Shown one piece after another: positions 328-17,156 of a stretch of DNA of 28,976 nucleotides (its first letter is position 1; the number at the start of each line of letters is the position of its first letter). The notes beneath the pieces were generated by a model that saw only the letters and a list, made by a program, of their open reading frames with translations, was not told the DNA's origin and searched no databases. The DNA comes from a virus, in IMG/VR virus record IMGVR_UViG_3300032675_000104, positions 1-28,976 of that record. One strand, given 5' to 3'. Both the position numbers and the translations under genes were made by a program.

Positions 328-1026
328 ATGAGCGTCTACGGCTACATCCGCGTCAGCACGGTCGAGCAGGCCAATGACCGCAGTTCGCTGGACGACCAGC
401 AGCGGCGCATCACCGGCGCGGCCATGATGCGCGGGGAGACCATCACCCGCGTGTTCAGCGATCCGGGGGTCAGCGGGGGGACGCCGATCGGCCGGCGGCC
501 GGGCGGCGCGGAGTTGATGGAGGCCCTCCAGCCGGGCGACACCGTGATCGCGGCGAAGATGGATCGTATTTTCCGCAGCGCCGAGGATGCGCTGGTCACC
601 GCGGGTCGCCTGCAGGAGCGGCAGGTGAAGCTGGTCATCGCCGACATGGGGCCCGACCCGGTGACGGAGAACGGCGCGGCGAAGCTGTTCTTCACCATGC
701 TCGCGGCCTTCGCCGAGTTCGAGCGCAACCGCATCGCCGAGCGCGTCACCGACGGGCGTCGCGCCAAGAGCCGCGCAGGGGGGTTCGTGGGCGGGCTGCC
801 GCCCTACGGCTTCCGCGTGGTCGGCAGTGGTCGCGACGCCAAGCTGGTGAAGGACGAGGGTGAGCAGGAGGCGATCAAGCGCGCCCGCGAGCTTCGCGCC
901 CAGGGCCTGCCGGTCGCCGAGGTGGCCGAGACCCTCGGTGAAGAGGGGTATTTCAGCCGCAACGGCGACGTGTTCATGCCGATGCAGGTCTACCGCATGC
1001 TGCAACCCCGGAAGGAGACCACCTGA
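328..1026 (+). CDS. Small serine recombinase (resolvase/invertase family)
   Basis: Encodes 232 residues. The N-terminal resolvase catalytic domain is clear: YIRVST places the nucleophile at Ser10 with Arg8 beside it, and KMDRIFRS (77-84) supplies the conserved Asp-Arg...Arg active-site cluster at 79, 80 and 83. A charged helix around 126-140 (FAEFERNRIAERV) matches the dimerising E-helix. GGLPPYGFRV (155-164) is the usual start of the C-terminal DNA-binding part, followed by a Hin-like helix-turn-helix at about 194-215. The protein is too short for a large serine integrase. It makes recombinational DNA breaks through a Ser-DNA intermediate; whether it acts as integrase, resolvase or invertase is not shown. 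GGAG lies 6 bases before the ATG, and the stop overlaps the next ATG. Confidence 0.92.
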   Translation: MSVYGYIRVSTVEQANDRSSLDDQQRRITGAAMMRGETITRVFSDPGVSGGTPIGRRPGGAELMEALQPGDTVIAAKMDRIFRSAEDALVTAGRLQERQVKLVIADMGPDPVTENGAAKLFFTMLAAFAEFERNRIAERVTDGRRAKSRAGGFVGGLPPYGFRVVGSGRDAKLVKDEGEQEAIKRARELRAQGLPVAEVAETLGEEGYFSRNGDVFMPMQVYRMLQPRKETT

Positions 1027-3198: not shown

Positions 3199-5156
3199 GC
3201 GACCAACCCTCCGCGCCCGCGGTGCACACGCGGGACTACCACCTCGAGGACACCGGCGAAGTGTGGTCGGCGGACAAGGCCGCCGCCTACAAGGACGCGT
3301 TTCTGGAGTTCTTGAACTACTGCGTGATCCCGTCGAAGGAGAAGGGCGAGATTGTGCTGGGCGGCCAGCTGTACCCGGCGCAGGAGCGAGGTCTGGATCT
3401 GATCTTTGCGGGCCTGCAGCGGGGCATCCACGACTTCAAGTGGGGCAAGGGCCGTCAGCAGGGCATCAGCACCATCTGCCGGCCGTTCAGCTCGATGTGG
3501 ATCGCCCTGCACGCCGGCTCGCGCGGCGCGTTCCTGCTGGACACCGCGCAGCACATGAGCGAGGCGCGCACCGAGGTCGAGTACACCCTCGCCAGCTTGC
3601 CGACGAAGCTGCGGTTCCCCACCTTCAAGTCCAACCGTTACGGCGGCCGGTTCAGCAACGGCAGCACCGTGACCTTCCTCTCCGCCGGCGTGAAGCAGAC
3701 CGCCGGCGGCGGCGCGCTGGGGCGCGGCCAGGGCCTGACGATGGTCCACGCATCGGAGGTCGGCACCTACAACAACCCCGAGGGCCTGAGCAGCTTCCGC
3801 AAGTCCCTGGCCGTCGAGAACCCCAACCGGCTGTTCCTGTGGGAGTCCACGGGCCGCAACGTCGGCTCCGACTGGTACCGGATGTGGCAGAAGGCCGTCG
3901 CCAACGACCTCGAGGAAGCCACGGTCTTCACCGGCTGGTACCTGGTGCCCACGCACCGCATCCGCGCCGGCACCGCGCAGTTCGAGAAGTTCGGATCGCC
4001 GCCGATCACCCGCGAGGAGGCAAAGCGCATCGACGAGGTCGAGCGGCGCTACGGCTGGAAGGTGACCCGCGAGCAACTGGCCTGGTACCGCAAGGAGACC
4101 AACCCGCTCGGCTACGGCGACGACGACGAGGACACCGACAGCGACATCGCCTACGACGAGTACCAGGGCCGCGAGCACCCGTGGGTCGAGGAGGAGATGT
4201 TCACGACCGACGGGAGCAACTTCTTCTCGTCGGAAAAGCTCACCGAGATCAGCAAAACCACGGCCAGCGACGAGTTCAAGTCGTGGCAGTTCTACACCGG
4301 CGCCGACTTCATCAGCATGTCGATCGAACCCGCGCGCCACCGGCGGCAGATCCAGCTGAAGGTCTGGGAGGAGCCCAAGCCCGAAGGCGTCTACATCGTC
4401 GCCGCGGATCCGGCGTTCGGCGCGAACGAGCACAACGACCGCAGCGCGGCGCAGATCATGCGCTGCTACGCCGACAAGCTCGAGCAGGTCGGCGAGTTCG
4501 CCGCCACCAACGTGCAGCCGCACCAGTTCGCCTGGGTGCTGGCCTCCCTGATGGGCTGGTACAAGAACACCCGCCTGATGCTCGAGATCAACGGTCCAGG
4601 CGTGGCGGTGTGGCAGGAATACCAGAGCCTGAAGCGCATCGTGACCTCGGGCTACCTGCGCCGCGAGGCGGAAGAGCAGGGGCTGAAGAACTTCTTCGTG
4701 AACTGCAAGAACTACCTCTACACGCGGCCGGACGCCGTGGTGCCGGGCCAGGGTTCAGTGCATTGGAAGACGACCAGCGTCAACAAGGTGCCCATGATGG
4801 AGCGCCTGCGCGACTTCGTGACCAACGGCGGGATCATCATCCGGTCTCGAGAGGCGATCGACGAGCTGCGGGTCGTCACGCGCGACGGCGACAGCATCAA
4901 GGCGGAGGGCGACGATCACGACGACCGGGTGCTGGCGCTCGCGATGGCGGTGCTGTGCTGGGAGCAGTACGAGCGCCGGCCGCTGATCGCCCAGAACCGC
5001 ACCCGCGACGCGGAGATCGCCCGCACCCGCCTGTCCATGCAGGACCAGTTCTCCCTGCTGGCCAGCCACAACCTGAACCGCTACTTCAAAGGGAAGGAGG
5101 CAGACCGACGCGCCGCGTCGTTGCTGGCGTCCCGCATGGCCTGGAGGGGCCGATGA
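3195..5156 (+). CDS. terL: Terminase large subunit (DNA packaging ATPase/nuclease)
   Basis: 653 residues, normal for the family. ATPase domain: the P-loop-like GKGRQQGIST lies at 84-93, where the usual Walker lysine is replaced by Ile91; the RQxGxST form is frequent in one terminase lineage. The Walker B-like segment LTMVHASEVG (181-190) carries catalytic Glu188. Nuclease domain (RNase H-like): Asp405 in VAADPAFG, Glu464 in LMLEINGPG and the Asp pair within DDHDDRVLALAMAV (573-586) form the expected acidic triad. The protein pumps and cuts phage DNA at the portal. The start is ATG 3195, preceded by AAGGAGGTG (3181-3189); a longer upstream frame overlaps the previous gene and lacks support. 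No small terminase subunit could be identified. Confidence 0.95.
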   Translation: MSDQPSAPAVHTRDYHLEDTGEVWSADKAAAYKDAFLEFLNYCVIPSKEKGEIVLGGQLYPAQERGLDLIFAGLQRGIHDFKWGKGRQQGISTICRPFSSMWIALHAGSRGAFLLDTAQHMSEARTEVEYTLASLPTKLRFPTFKSNRYGGRFSNGSTVTFLSAGVKQTAGGGALGRGQGLTMVHASEVGTYNNPEGLSSFRKSLAVENPNRLFLWESTGRNVGSDWYRMWQKAVANDLEEATVFTGWYLVPTHRIRAGTAQFEKFGSPPITREEAKRIDEVERRYGWKVTREQLAWYRKETNPLGYGDDDEDTDSDIAYDEYQGREHPWVEEEMFTTDGSNFFSSEKLTEISKTTASDEFKSWQFYTGADFISMSIEPARHRRQIQLKVWEEPKPEGVYIVAADPAFGANEHNDRSAAQIMRCYADKLEQVGEFAATNVQPHQFAWVLASLMGWYKNTRLMLEINGPGVAVWQEYQSLKRIVTSGYLRREAEEQGLKNFFVNCKNYLYTRPDAVVPGQGSVHWKTTSVNKVPMMERLRDFVTNGGIIIRSREAIDELRVVTRDGDSIKAEGDDHDDRVLALAMAVLCWEQYERRPLIAQNRTRDAEIARTRLSMQDQFSLLASHNLNRYFKGKEADRRAASLLASRMAWRGR

Positions 5157-5802: not shown

Positions 5803-7452
5803 ATGATCCTGGCTTCCAACAAGGCCGAACTCCTTCGGCAAGCGATCGAGATCAAGGAGACCTGCCGGGTTTCTGCGCCTCAGAGGGCCGCGCTTTGCCG
5901 CCTGCAGAACATGTGGGTCGAGACGGGCCGTCCGTCGGGCACCAGGGCGCTGGTGAACAAGCTGTACTCGCACATCGACCGGCTGCAGTCGCACCTATAC
6001 AGCCCCGCCGAATTGCGCTTCGTGCTGGACTACGAGGCGCACTACCCGGCCGAGGTCTTGGCGCAGGGGGAAGTCGCCGCCCGTGTGCTCACCCGAGAGT
6101 GGGAGCGCAAGGACATCGACGTGCAGTTCGGCAACGCGGTGAACCTGGGCCTGCAGTACGGGGCCTGCATCATGAAGCAGATGTGGGGCCACTCGGGGGT
6201 CGAGGCGCGCGTCATCCAGCCCTGGCAGTTCGGCGTCTACCGCGAGGACGTCACGAGCATCGAGGAGCAGGAAGCCCTGTGCGAGAGCGGGCTGATGACG
6301 CTGCCCGAGGTCTGGCGCCGCATCAGCCATCTACCGGACGCCCAGGCCCTCTACACCCGCATTCGGGCCCACGCGAGCAAGAACAGCGGCGAGACGCTGA
6401 ACAGCAGCTTCTTCCACAACGTGCTGTCGACGAGCATCCTGAACACCGATCTCGCGACCGCGCGTCAGCAGCCGGGCGGCGTCGTGCAGCTGTCGGGCGA
6501 TTCCTCAATGTCGATGGTCGGGCCCGAGATCAACATCGACCTCGTGCCGTTCCACGAGATGTGGGTCAAGGACGACGACCGAGAGGATTACACGACCATC
6601 CTGCTCATCGAGCCGGACATCATCGTCAGCCCGTACTTCAAGCGGGAGAACATGTTCGCCCCGAAGACGCAACCGTTCAGCCTGGTGCAGCCGAACCAGA
6701 TGCCCGGCTATTTCTGGGGCCGCTCCGAGATCATCGACCTGATGGAGCCGCAGGGGCTGCTGGCGCAGTGGATGGACGACCTGAAGCGCCTCATGGGCGT
6801 CCAGTTCGACAAGATCCTCGCCTTCACCGGTGCCGACGGGATCACCGACGAGAAGTACGCCGAGTTCCGCGCCGCGGGCTTCGTGGATCTGCCGGCGGGC
6901 GCGTCGGTGAACGACCTAACGCCGCCGCTGCCGCCGCAGACGTTCCAGGCCATCGACACGCTGAACAAGTTCATGGAGGAGATCTCCGGCTTCTCCAACA
7001 TCCTGTCCGGCCAGGGCGAGATGGGCGTGCGGTCGGGCAACCACGCCGAGACGCTGAGCAAGATGGCCTCGCCGCGGTTGCGCGACCGGTCACTGCTGGT
7101 CGAGCGCCAGGCCGCCGCTATGGCCGACAAGACGCTCGACCTGATGCAGGCTAAGGACGGCAAGCAGTACATGACCGAAAGCGGCAAGGGCTTCGTGCTG
7201 CACGATCTGCCGGAAGACCGGCGCGTCGCCGTGGACAGCCACTCGTCGAGCCCCATCTTCGCTGACAACCACCAGCAGCTCATCGCCTTCGGCCTCAAGA
7301 GCGGCTTCGTGGGCGGTGACAGCGCGATCGAGATGCTCCCGTACCCGCAGAAGGACATCCTGAAGCAACGCTACAAGGTGATGCAGGAGGCCAAGCAGAA
7401 GATGATTCAGGAGCACCCCGAAATGCTGACCAGGGGCAAGGGTCACAAGTAG
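5803..7452 (+). CDS. Portal protein (head-tail connector)
   Basis: 549 residues, a normal length for a podoviral portal. The call rests on its position between terminase and scaffold/capsid and on the overall pattern: an N-terminal helical segment, a central mixed region with PFHEMWVKDDDRED, the stretch PNQMPGYFWGRSEIIDLMEPQGLL typical of portal wings, a long helix (LLAQWMDDLKRLMGVQFDKILAF), an ISGFSNILSGQGE segment, and a charged C-terminus. It forms the dodecameric ring through which DNA enters and leaves. ATG 5803 is the only plausible start, since the frame opens at 5749 and no GTG, TTG or other ATG lies between, yet no Shine-Dalgarno sequence sits at normal distance. Translation may depend on the leader structure. 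Confidence 0.9.
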   Translation: MILASNKAELLRQAIEIKETCRVSAPQRAALCRLQNMWVETGRPSGTRALVNKLYSHIDRLQSHLYSPAELRFVLDYEAHYPAEVLAQGEVAARVLTREWERKDIDVQFGNAVNLGLQYGACIMKQMWGHSGVEARVIQPWQFGVYREDVTSIEEQEALCESGLMTLPEVWRRISHLPDAQALYTRIRAHASKNSGETLNSSFFHNVLSTSILNTDLATARQQPGGVVQLSGDSSMSMVGPEINIDLVPFHEMWVKDDDREDYTTILLIEPDIIVSPYFKRENMFAPKTQPFSLVQPNQMPGYFWGRSEIIDLMEPQGLLAQWMDDLKRLMGVQFDKILAFTGADGITDEKYAEFRAAGFVDLPAGASVNDLTPPLPPQTFQAIDTLNKFMEEISGFSNILSGQGEMGVRSGNHAETLSKMASPRLRDRSLLVERQAAAMADKTLDLMQAKDGKQYMTESGKGFVLHDLPEDRRVAVDSHSSSPIFADNHQQLIAFGLKSGFVGGDSAIEMLPYPQKDILKQRYKVMQEAKQKMIQEHPEMLTRGKGHK

Positions 7453-7455
7453 GGC

Positions 7456-7532
7456 TGGTTGCGGAGGCGGGATTTGAACCCACGGCCTTCTGGTTATGAG
7501 CCAGATGAGCTACCGGACTGCTCTACTCCGCT
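7456..7532 (-). tRNA. Initiator-type tRNA-fMet (anticodon CAU)
   Basis: The minus strand folds into a complete 77-nt cloverleaf with an encoded CCA end. Acceptor pairs 2-7 match CTCCGC, while 1-72 is an A-A mismatch, comparable with the C-A mismatch of bacterial initiators. The D-stem is GAGC/GCTC with the initiator-type A11-U24 pair, the anticodon loop is CTCATAA, the anticodon stem is TCTGG/CCAGA, and the T-loop is TTCAAAT. By my recall of the E. coli initiator it differs at about 12 of 77 positions, several of them compensatory. The anticodon stem has U29-A41 in place of the first of the three conserved G-C pairs. Its 5' end overlaps the helix-turn-helix gene by 23 bases, and it ends 3 bases from the portal stop. 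Confidence 0.93.
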
Positions 7533-7758
7533 GCTGTTCGAGCCATAGCTGAACTTCGGCGTCGTTGTAAAGCACCTTCCTTCCGCGCCTGTGGAATGGA
7601 GGCGCGTGACCGTCCGCTCGGTGGCGGTGCAAATATGCTCTGGAGACGCCGCAAATTGCGGCGACCTGCTTCACCGTGAGCCATTGCGAGGCAATCATCG
7701 CAACACGATACAAGCAGCCTATATCGCGGTCAATGGCTTCGGGTTTACGCATAATCAC
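7510..7758 (-). CDS. AlpA/excisionase-like helix-turn-helix protein
   Basis: Up to 82 residues from GTG 7758. Residues 26-75 match the AlpA/excisionase winged-helix pattern: WLTVKQVAAICGVSRAYLHRH (the helix-turn-helix), then a wing with RRGRKVLYN and the helix DAEVQLWLEQQ. Such proteins act as excisionases or small transcription regulators. Two starts are possible: GTG 7758, with AGGAGGG at 7777-7771 (spacing 12, rather long), or ATG 7698 (62 residues), which would coincide with the transcription start of a promoter at 7733-7705. It is the only convincing minus-strand protein gene in the window. Its last seven codons, including the TAG stop at 7512-7510, lie within the tRNA. Confidence 0.8.
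   Translation of the reverse strand: MIMRKPEAIDRDIGCLYRVAMIASQWLTVKQVAAICGVSRAYLHRHRADGHAPPFHRRGRKVLYNDAEVQLWLEQQRSRAVR
7705..7733 (-). promoter_or_regulatory. Sigma-70-like promoter driving the HTH/tRNA island
   Basis: On the minus strand TTGACC (7733-7728; five of six consensus bases) is followed after exactly 17 bases by TATCGT (7710-7705; four of six). The predicted start falls at or next to the A of an in-frame ATG (7698), which would make a leaderless message for the short form of the helix-turn-helix protein and carry the tRNA downstream. Confidence 0.45.
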
Positions 7759-7876
7759 CCGAGGCAGTTGCCCTCCTGGATCGAAAGACCCTGGGTGGCG
7801 GTTGTTGGGAGAGGAGCCCCCTCGGTGTCGGACGCTCGTCGTCCGGCCGTATCAACCCGCACGCCAGGAGGCTACC
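7759..7876. other. Divergent intergenic region with hairpin
   Basis: This 118-base stretch lies between the minus-strand helix-turn-helix gene and the + strand micro-ORF. It holds a ribosome-binding site for each direction: AGGAGGG on the minus strand at 7777-7771 and AGGAGG on the + strand at about 7867-7872. An 8-bp hairpin (7827-7834 with 7840-7847, one G-U pair, 5-base loop) has no U-tract on either side. No good promoter is seen. Confidence 0.5.
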
Positions 7877-7912
7877 ATGGCTCGCAAGTCCCACCGCAAG
7901 GGCCGCAAGTAA
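7877..7912 (+). CDS. Basic 11-residue micro-ORF (possible leader peptide)
   Basis: ATG 7877 is preceded by a near-perfect AGGAGG at 4-5 bases spacing, stronger than most sites nearby, and encodes MARKSHRKGRK before TAA. Seven of its 11 residues are Lys, Arg or His. The stop lies 4 bases before the start of the next gene, which has no good site of its own, so translation of that gene may be coupled to this peptide. A longer frame upstream (from 7676) lies mostly antisense to the helix-turn-helix gene and is not favoured. The peptide may itself be a nucleic-acid-binding microprotein. Confidence 0.5.
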   Translation: MARKSHRKGRK

Positions 7913-12690: not shown

Positions 12691-12692
12691 CG

Positions 12693-12995
12693 ATGGCCAA
12701 AACCCCTGCCTGGACCCGCAAGGAGGGCAAAAACCCCTCGGGCGGCCTGAACGCGAAGGGCCGCGCCTCGTATCACGCGCAAACGGGCGGCACGCTCAAG
12801 GCGCCGGTCAAATCCGGCGACAATCCGCGCCGCGCCAGCTTCCTGGCTCGCATGGGCGGGATGCCCGGGCCCGAACGCGACAGTTCCGGCCAGCCGACGC
12901 GGCTGCTGAAGTCGCTCCAGGCGTGGGGCGCGTCGAGCAAGGCGGATGCGAAGCGGAAAGCCGCAGCGATCCGCAAGCGCACCAAGGGGGATTGA
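12693..12995 (+). CDS. DUF6321-like small basic phage protein, 100 aa
   Basis: The start is ATG 12693, with GGGAGG at 12680-12685; the longer frame upstream is a shadow of the adaptor gene. The product carries the pattern I associate with DUF6321: AWTRKEGKNPSGGLNAKGRASY, KAPVKSGDNPRRASFLARMGGMPGP, then PTRLLKSLQAWG and a Lys/Arg-rich tail. This family is widespread in podoviruses and their relatives, usually beside connector genes, and its function is unknown. The strongly basic composition suggests contact with DNA or with acidic virion surfaces. The stop overlaps the next start (TGATG). Confidence 0.82.
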   Translation: MAKTPAWTRKEGKNPSGGLNAKGRASYHAQTGGTLKAPVKSGDNPRRASFLARMGGMPGPERDSSGQPTRLLKSLQAWGASSKADAKRKAAAIRKRTKGD

Positions 12996-16201: not shown

Positions 16202-16695
16202 GCGCGACCAAACGCCGTTATGTCGAACCGGCGGCCCCCGAGCCCTCCGTGGAGTTCAACACCGTTCCGCCGCCCCCGCCGGTCGTGCGCCGCGTGACGC
16301 CCACGGACTTCGAGCAGACCGCCGGCTGGGTGATCCCGATGATCCAAGAGGATTTCTGCGGCCCGTCGTCCATGCTCGTCTACCGCTGGATGCGGAGCTG
16401 GGCGACCGACAACCAGTTCAGCTTCGTCTGCACCGACAACGCGGTCGGCCTAGCGATGCTCGCCAACGACCCGTTGGTGCCCGTCCCCACCGTGCAGGAG
16501 ATCTTCCTTTACGTGCGTCCGGGCCGGCAGTACAAGCACGAGGGCTTGGAGATCTACAAGCACTTCGCCGCCTGGATGCGGATGAACCATGCGGGCCGGT
16601 TCCGGTTCTACGACACCCCCGGCGCGCCCATGGACGAGCTTCGCAAGCTGTTCCCGGATCTTCAGGAGCAGAAGATGTGGTACGTGGACAATTGA
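16198..16695 (+). CDS. Degenerate GNAT-like protein, 165 aa
   Basis: ATG 16198 lies in an ATGA overlap with the previous stop. A Pro-rich N-terminus (VPPPPPVVRR) precedes a domain whose order recalls GNAT acetyltransferases: TPTDFEQTAGWVIPMIQED, a FVCTDNAVGLAMLAND strand pair, VQEIFLYVRPGRQYKHEGLEIYKHFAAWMR and FRFYDTPG. The CoA-binding loop is not a normal Q/RxxGxG/A, so activity is doubtful. The gene directly downstream encodes a clearer GNAT, which makes a shared origin plausible. Paired acetyltransferase-like genes near tail genes are known in phages, but their targets are not. Confidence 0.6.
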   Translation: MSATKRRYVEPAAPEPSVEFNTVPPPPPVVRRVTPTDFEQTAGWVIPMIQEDFCGPSSMLVYRWMRSWATDNQFSFVCTDNAVGLAMLANDPLVPVPTVQEIFLYVRPGRQYKHEGLEIYKHFAAWMRMNHAGRFRFYDTPGAPMDELRKLFPDLQEQKMWYVDN

Positions 16696-17156
16696 AATAC
16701 CAGCAGGAACTCCTTGCGGACGCTCTGGATGATCTGAAGCCGTTGCTCGTTGGGCATTGGGAAGAGATCGCGCGCAACCGCGACTTCGTCCCGCTCGACC
16801 CGGATTACGACACGTATCTGCGGATCGAGGCGACGGGCATGCTCCGTGTCTACACGGTGCGCGCCGATGACGGTGCGGTCGTGGGGTACGCGATCTATTT
16901 CGTGCGTCCGCACCTGCACTACCGGCGGAATGTTTGGGCGGTGTCGGACATCGTCTACCTTCGTCCCGAATACCGGCGCGGCTTCTGCGGCATTCGGTTG
17001 CTGTCCTTCGCCGAGAAGAAGCTGACGGAGGACGGCGTCCACGTCATGCACACGACGAGCAAGCTGGCGCATCCCGCTCTTGCCCGAGTTTTGGAGCACT
17101 TGGGGCACAACCCGATCGAGATGGGGCACGCCAAGGTGCTGAACAAGGAAGCATGA
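16677..17156 (+). CDS. GNAT-family N-acetyltransferase
   Basis: 159 residues from GTG 16677, chosen because AGGAG (16664-16668) sits 8 bases upstream; TTG 16692, in a TTGA overlap, is the alternative. The GNAT fold is visible: GAVVGYAIYFVRPHLHYRRN (beta strands), WAVSDIVYLRPEYRRGFCGIRLLSFAEKK with the acetyl-CoA-binding loop RRGFCG, and a later HTTSKLAHPALARVLEHLGHNPIEMGHAKVL segment matching the C-terminal half. It transfers an acetyl group from acetyl-CoA to an unknown amine. It overlaps the upstream GNAT-like gene by 19 bases. Confidence 0.83.
   Translation: MVRGQLKYQQELLADALDDLKPLLVGHWEEIARNRDFVPLDPDYDTYLRIEATGMLRVYTVRADDGAVVGYAIYFVRPHLHYRRNVWAVSDIVYLRPEYRRGFCGIRLLSFAEKKLTEDGVHVMHTTSKLAHPALARVLEHLGHNPIEMGHAKVLNKEA

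Follow-up and report, generated by a model that had tools for sequence, protein, structure and literature searches.

The stretch of viral DNA analyzed here (the window, 28,976 nt, an IMG/VR virus record) has terminase, portal-type, capsid, and tail genes, representing a phage contig of ca. 29 kb, and carries, as judged from its sequence, a functional-looking initiator-type tRNA gene. We regard it as an ordinary-looking case of the known but little-discussed phage-encoded initiators, located in a spot for variable cargo genes downstream of the portal gene. The point of note is a recurrent swap of one pair of the anticodon stem, 29-41, relative to host initiators. The reading that we favor, and to which we give an even chance, is that of an accessory functional initiator that adds to or replaces the tRNA-fMet of the host, as insurance against enzymes that disable it.

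Identification of the tRNA gene

The only tRNA that ARAGORN detected in the window was a tRNA-Met(cat) (Table 1), which clearly exceeded the cut-off of the Rfam tRNA family (29 bits) and whose minimum-free-energy fold (-27.4 kcal/mol, z -2.4) is a cloverleaf in which A1 remains unpaired. The complete 77-nt molecule with a CAU anticodon and an encoded CCA that the initial annotation had placed on the minus strand is thus the one recovered by all three approaches. Direct reading gives an acceptor stem (AGCGGAG/CTCCGCA) of six pairs plus A1xA72, a D stem (GAGC/GCTC) with A11-U24, an anticodon stem (TCTGG/CCAGA) containing U29-A41, G30-C40, and G31-C39, the anticodon loop CTCATAA, and the discriminator A73. 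Compared with the determinants of formylation and initiator selection listed in PMC7949028, the CAU anticodon lies within a CUCAUAA loop, positions 1 and 72 do not form a Watson-Crick pair, A11-U24, G2-C71, and C3-G70 (formylation) are all present, and so are G30-C40 and G31-C39, while G29-C41 is replaced by U29-A41. Therefore, the initiator features described in the initial annotation (A-A at 1-72, A11-U24, and the loop) can all be read in the gene, and the two altered hallmarks that it listed, A1 and U29-A41, are real. What did not stand is the notion of G29-C41 as a universal bacterial hallmark; since the chromosomal initiators of Alphaproteobacteria are nearly all A29-U41, G29-C41 cannot serve as a defining feature of the family in this class.

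A contig that looks independent (L002) matches the window without a difference along 7,422 nt, a stretch that takes in the tRNA, and an assembly chimera at this point is therefore unlikely. The phage origin of the gene agrees with both the virus record and the neighboring terminase, portal, and capsid genes. Searches with the terminase and capsid proteins for host prediction retrieved only unclassified or distant phages.

Table 1. Features of the window mentioned in the text
Feature	Position	Strand	Basis or remark
Short serine recombinase gene (232 aa)	328..1026	+	Resolvase domain; phage integrases as best match; left end of contig
Portal protein gene	5803..7452	+	31% to annotated portal proteins of MW202753/MW202825
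Left part of variable cargo spot (portal stop to HTH_17 stop)	7453..7509		Comparison of relatives
Initiator-type tRNA gene (CAU)	7456..7532	-	ARAGORN; Rfam RF00005, 63.9 bits; fold
HTH_17 (excisionase/AlpA/MerR-like) small DNA-binding protein gene	7510..7698	-	Pfam HTH_17, E 2.6e-12; phrog_66 excisionase/regulator
Sigma-70-like promoter (TTGACC-N17-TATCGT)	7705..7733	-	Pattern scan, 1 found vs 0.2 expected
Conserved block (CCCGAGGCAGTTGCC...GGGTGGCGGTTGTTGGGAGAGGAGCCCCCTCGG)	7758..7826	+	Foldable into a closed multi-stem structure
Eleven-codon ORF (MARKSHRKGRK)	7877..7912	+	Behind AGGAGG
Small ORF	12692..12763		Downstream of capsid region
GNAT-family acetyltransferase gene	16677..17156	+	Tail region

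A cargo spot between the portal and HTH_17 genes

Upstream of the tRNA and on the same strand lies a gene for a small DNA-binding protein of the HTH_17 type, the end of which shares 23 nt with the 5' end of the tRNA gene. Its start was set at a conserved ATG (7698), and the open frame reaches back to a GTG at 7758. The gene is kept on the minus strand after the portal in all full-length close relatives; used as a query, the protein retrieved the identical contig as its sole match. The promoter motif TTGAC-N17-TANNNT is common to five relatives (L151, L152, L155, L163, and L164) upstream of HTH_17. This sigma-70-like site likely drives HTH_17 and the tRNA, and the two are probably found on one shared transcript.

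A search with the portal protein recovered 80 viral loci, and the region between the portal stop, which forms its left border, and HTH_17 was compared in the loci that possess HTH_17. At 84-85% portal identity, the relatives L151 and L152 have an empty spot, reduced to ca. 10 nt in L151, and a third with 86% (L003) carries a D12-type DNA methyltransferase instead. L004 has a tRNA-Lys(CTT) on the plus strand, eight contigs (L155-L158 and L160-L163) have a tRNA-Lys followed by a tRNA-fMet, both on the plus strand, and L005 and L164 have other ORFs. The small ORF that follows the capsid region of the window sits in the L005 spot at about 7661-7732, which suggests that genes move into this place. 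A more distant relative (L203) has a tRNA-Arg(TCT) directly after the portal gene, on the opposite strand (4535-4610, minus).

At least eight related contigs thus have a homologous initiator at this place. These initiators share with the one in the window the location after the portal gene and an identical anticodon arm, U29-A41 included, and differ in being on the opposite strand behind a tRNA-Lys(CTT), in having C1xA72, and in overall sequence (68-70 of 77 positions identical). The comparison with L161 (70/77) is informative in that every stem difference preserves pairing, such as A6-U67 in the window for G6-C67 in L161. Hence, the view of the initial annotation that the tRNA is functional-looking, with its structure maintained, fits the comparison, and the gene appears to be dispensable cargo that is held intact wherever it is present. 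Since the L155 group combines the same U29-A41 with C1xA72, the comparison indicates that U29-A41 predates the window phage and that A1 arose locally. The idea that the loss of G29-C41 is special to this phage was rejected, as U29-A41 is found both in the L155 group and in phages of known hosts.

Pair 29-41 in host and phage initiators

Among 289 alphaproteobacterial genomes, the exact stem-loop with A29-U41 was found in 162 and that with U29-A41 in a single one, the seed genome. When bases 27-29 and 41-43 were left free, the copies listed were all A29-U41 except for one, in a genome picked for its U29-A41, and the copies listed for the 27 Caulobacteraceae genomes with a match were likewise all A29-U41 except that of the seed. 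Across 84,980 species of bacteria and archaea, the U29-A41 stem-loop appeared at just 20 loci, several of them in Patescibacteria. Of seven alphaproteobacterial genomes chosen because they have a U29-A41 copy, six contain one to three A29-U41 copies as well. Phage-type genes lie no farther than 8 kb from at least four of the seven additional (U29-A41) copies (L008, terminase and portal; L010, a Mu F-like protein; L016, a gpA terminase; L018, DUF1376). The search with the portal protein in 398 genomes of the phylum of the seed yielded one marginal fragment and nothing else.

The picture is different in viruses. An initiator pattern had at least 120 matches in IMG/VR, of which 119 were parsed and 92 were unique, 71 of these lying at least 400 nt from the end of the locus. 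In this last set, pair 29-41 was A-U in 28, G-C in 27, and U-A in 16, and positions 1-72 were C-A in only 21 and A-A in 5. These phage counts are uncorrected for relatedness and are not phylogenetically independent, and the constancy of G30, G31, C39, and C40 among them is imposed, since the patterns required these bases. Within these samples, U29-A41 is rare in host chromosomes and common in phage initiators. The window tRNA resembles the chromosomal tRNA-fMet of Alphaproteobacteria in its fold, A11-U24, G30-C40, G31-C39, and loop, while the latter has A29-U41 and, mostly, C1xA72; the alphaproteobacterial type may, however, not be the host type of this phage.

Phages with known alphaproteobacterial hosts were recovered by BLAST with no demand on G30, G31, C39, or C40, in part with the window tRNA as the query, which favors U29-A41, and for the rest with a host-type query; they are few and partly related, and what they display is a pattern rather than a statistic. 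U29-A41 is present in CcrSC, BL57, and CcrColossus (Caulobacter), phiLM21 and phiM12 (Sinorhizobium), and RcXuper (Rhodobacter), while the Erythrobacter phages ZS04/R6L have C29-G41. RHph_TM3_3_3 and Atu_ph07 keep A29-U41 and have C31-G39 swapped, phiM12 has C31-G39 in addition to U29-A41, and the Komagataeibacter phage phiKX1 carries a host-like tRNA-fMet. G30-C40 is retained in every one of these initiators, and the loop is mostly CTCATAA. Phages of known hosts thus seem to swap 29-41 and/or 31-39 repeatedly, sparing G30-C40. The closest parallels are CcrSC (where the tRNA-fMet is annotated), CcrColossus, and BL57, which share with the window U29-A41, CTCATAA, G30-C40, and G31-C39, but are phages of 225-318 kb with the gene at another locus, against a small phage with A1xA72; in CcrSC and CcrColossus, 1-72 is U-A.

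Abundance of phage initiators

Phage-borne initiators are fairly common, contrary to the rarity assumed in the initial annotation. Besides the IMG/VR pattern matches given above, the exact U29-A41 stem-loop was found in 113 IMG/VR contigs, and 244 GenBank phage records matched the window tRNA region by BLAST (266 with the host-type query), mostly mycobacteriophages and Caulobacter phages, not each of them confirmed as an initiator. It has been reported that Shigella phages avoid encoding tRNA-fMet (PMC10264068), and these counts question the published impression of phages avoiding this tRNA. An unannotated initiator-type tRNA lies directly 3' of the terminase gene in two Erythrobacter phages (L393 and L394) and two Xanthomonas phages (L380 and L399), which are thus further initiators adjoining head genes. 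In the Clavibacter phage CN1A (KF669650), an 80-nt stretch (50104-50183) annotated as a terminator is 88.8% identical to the window tRNA region and is possibly an overlooked initiator tRNA.

Possible function of the phage initiator

The reason why phages carry tRNAs is still debated, and an initiator is a case outside codon compensation. An initiator tRNA cannot serve this purpose, so the remaining role is the supply of initiator, which would be most useful when that of the host is destroyed. The gene would be transcribed from the conserved HTH_17 promoter, and the tRNA, once matured, would receive methionine by virtue of its CAU anticodon and A73. Formylation would proceed through the unpaired 1-72, G2-C71, C3-G70, and A11-U24, followed by IF2 binding and acceptance in the P site through G30-C40 and G31-C39. 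During infection, the phage initiator may then supplement or substitute the tRNA-fMet pool of the host. The initial annotation also proposed a shift in start codon choice related to the GTG and TTG starts of this phage, but about 20 of its 23 plausible genes start with ATG, two with GTG, and one with TTG. With 82/14/4% given in PMC11497404 as the mean for bacteria, this usage is ordinary, and the proposed link was rejected.

The likeliest benefit of such a supply would be insurance against VapC-type nucleases of the anticodon stem-loop that disable tRNA-fMet. VapC toxins that target tRNAs generally act on anticodon stem-loops (PMC7180214), and in Alphaproteobacteria the VapC of Bosea cleaves tRNA-fMet (PMC8522696) and that of Rickettsia does so in the anticodon arm (PMC12321070). 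Support of translation when host initiators are cleaved, as suggested in the initial annotation, is plausible. The 29-41 swap, which keeps the stem with both bases new, may lower recognition by such a nuclease. Given that the ribosome contact at 29-41 reportedly goes to the 2'-OH of nucleotide 41 (PMC11497404), the swap should be tolerated.

The repeated swaps at 29-41 or 31-39 in phages of many hosts, with G30-C40 and the loop kept, could represent a convergent escape from a widespread defense that reads the anticodon stem of the initiator, although we regard this broader proposal as rather unlikely. In nuclease-resistant phage tRNAs, the proposed escape mutations are in the anticodon loop (PMC10264068). 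The window tRNA may resemble them, as its anticodon arm departs from the alphaproteobacterial type and perhaps from that of its own host. Its loop, however, carries no mutation at a cleavage site, since CTCATAA is the same as in host-type initiators, which speaks against escape; here, it is a stem pair that is swapped. The swapped pair provides a compact, testable prediction, namely, that toxins cutting tRNA-fMet should read pair 29-41. An escape from AtaT via 1-72 was dropped, given that this enzyme reads mainly the three lower G-C pairs of the acceptor stem and tolerates C1-G72 (PMC7595197); A6-U67 of the window tRNA touches the region that AtaT reads.

Plain drift at a tolerant 29-41 pair is a serious rival to escape. 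The phage could simply need a larger dose of initiator for fast late protein synthesis, with no counter-defense involved, and A1 and U29-A41 would have drifted under weaker constraint. Phage initiators vary at 1-72, 3-70, 6-67, and 28-42 too, not just at 29-41, and with the ribosome contacting a 2'-OH there, the identity of the pair may drift freely. On the other hand, for a pair drifting away from A-U, G-C should be the easier end point (single transitions, via G-U) and U-A the harder one (two transversions), and among ten known-host alphaproteobacterial phage types, a small sample, there are none with G29-C41, six with U29-A41, and one with C29-G41. We consider a dosage supplement of this kind possible, though short of probable.

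The tRNA might also be an attachment site or a relic of integration, i.e., an attP copy of the host tRNA-fMet accompanied by HTH_17 as the excisionase. The excisionase-like nature of HTH_17, the short serine recombinase gene at the left contig end, the host-like tRNA-fMet of phiKX1, and the many host-like IMG/VR copies near locus ends would all fit. However, no integrase gene was recognized adjoining the window tRNA, which departs from the alphaproteobacterial type inside the anticodon stem, and the relatives have no constant tRNA at this place but an empty spot, a methyltransferase, a tRNA-Lys, or a pair of tRNAs in tandem, with cargo in both orientations. With such variable cargo, an attachment site is very unlikely. 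A nonfunctional passenger, acquired by recombination and now decaying, would explain the absence of the gene from the two relatives with 84-85% portal identity, but it is highly improbable in view of the intact stems, the encoded CCA, the pairing-preserving changes relative to L161, and the conserved upstream promoter. Finally, a decoy with no role in translation, soaking up a toxin or modifying enzyme that targets tRNA-fMet (both VapC and AtaT act on it; PMC7180214, PMC7595197), is barely credible, as it should retain rather than swap the bases read by the enzyme, and the tRNA, apart from G29-C41, still has every determinant for the ribosome and for formylation.

Other features of the window

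A highly conserved block on the plus strand (Table 1) recurs in L151 (2327-2395), L155 (4589-4659), and L164 (6309-6375), with weak matches in L184 (6000-6068) and L168 (6777-6844). No Rfam family matched it above the threshold. A model of the block had strong matches in 13 of the 57 loci searched, some of which were used to build it; covariation is weak because the sequence hardly varies, and the single-sequence fold of 7768-7836, in which the 5' arm is cut off, was no better than shuffles. Shortly after the block, there is the eleven-codon ORF, whose versions in the relatives are MARKHRKGRK, MARARKMHRKGRK, and MARKMHRKGRK. Farther along, the tail region contains an acetyltransferase gene of the GNAT family (Table 1).
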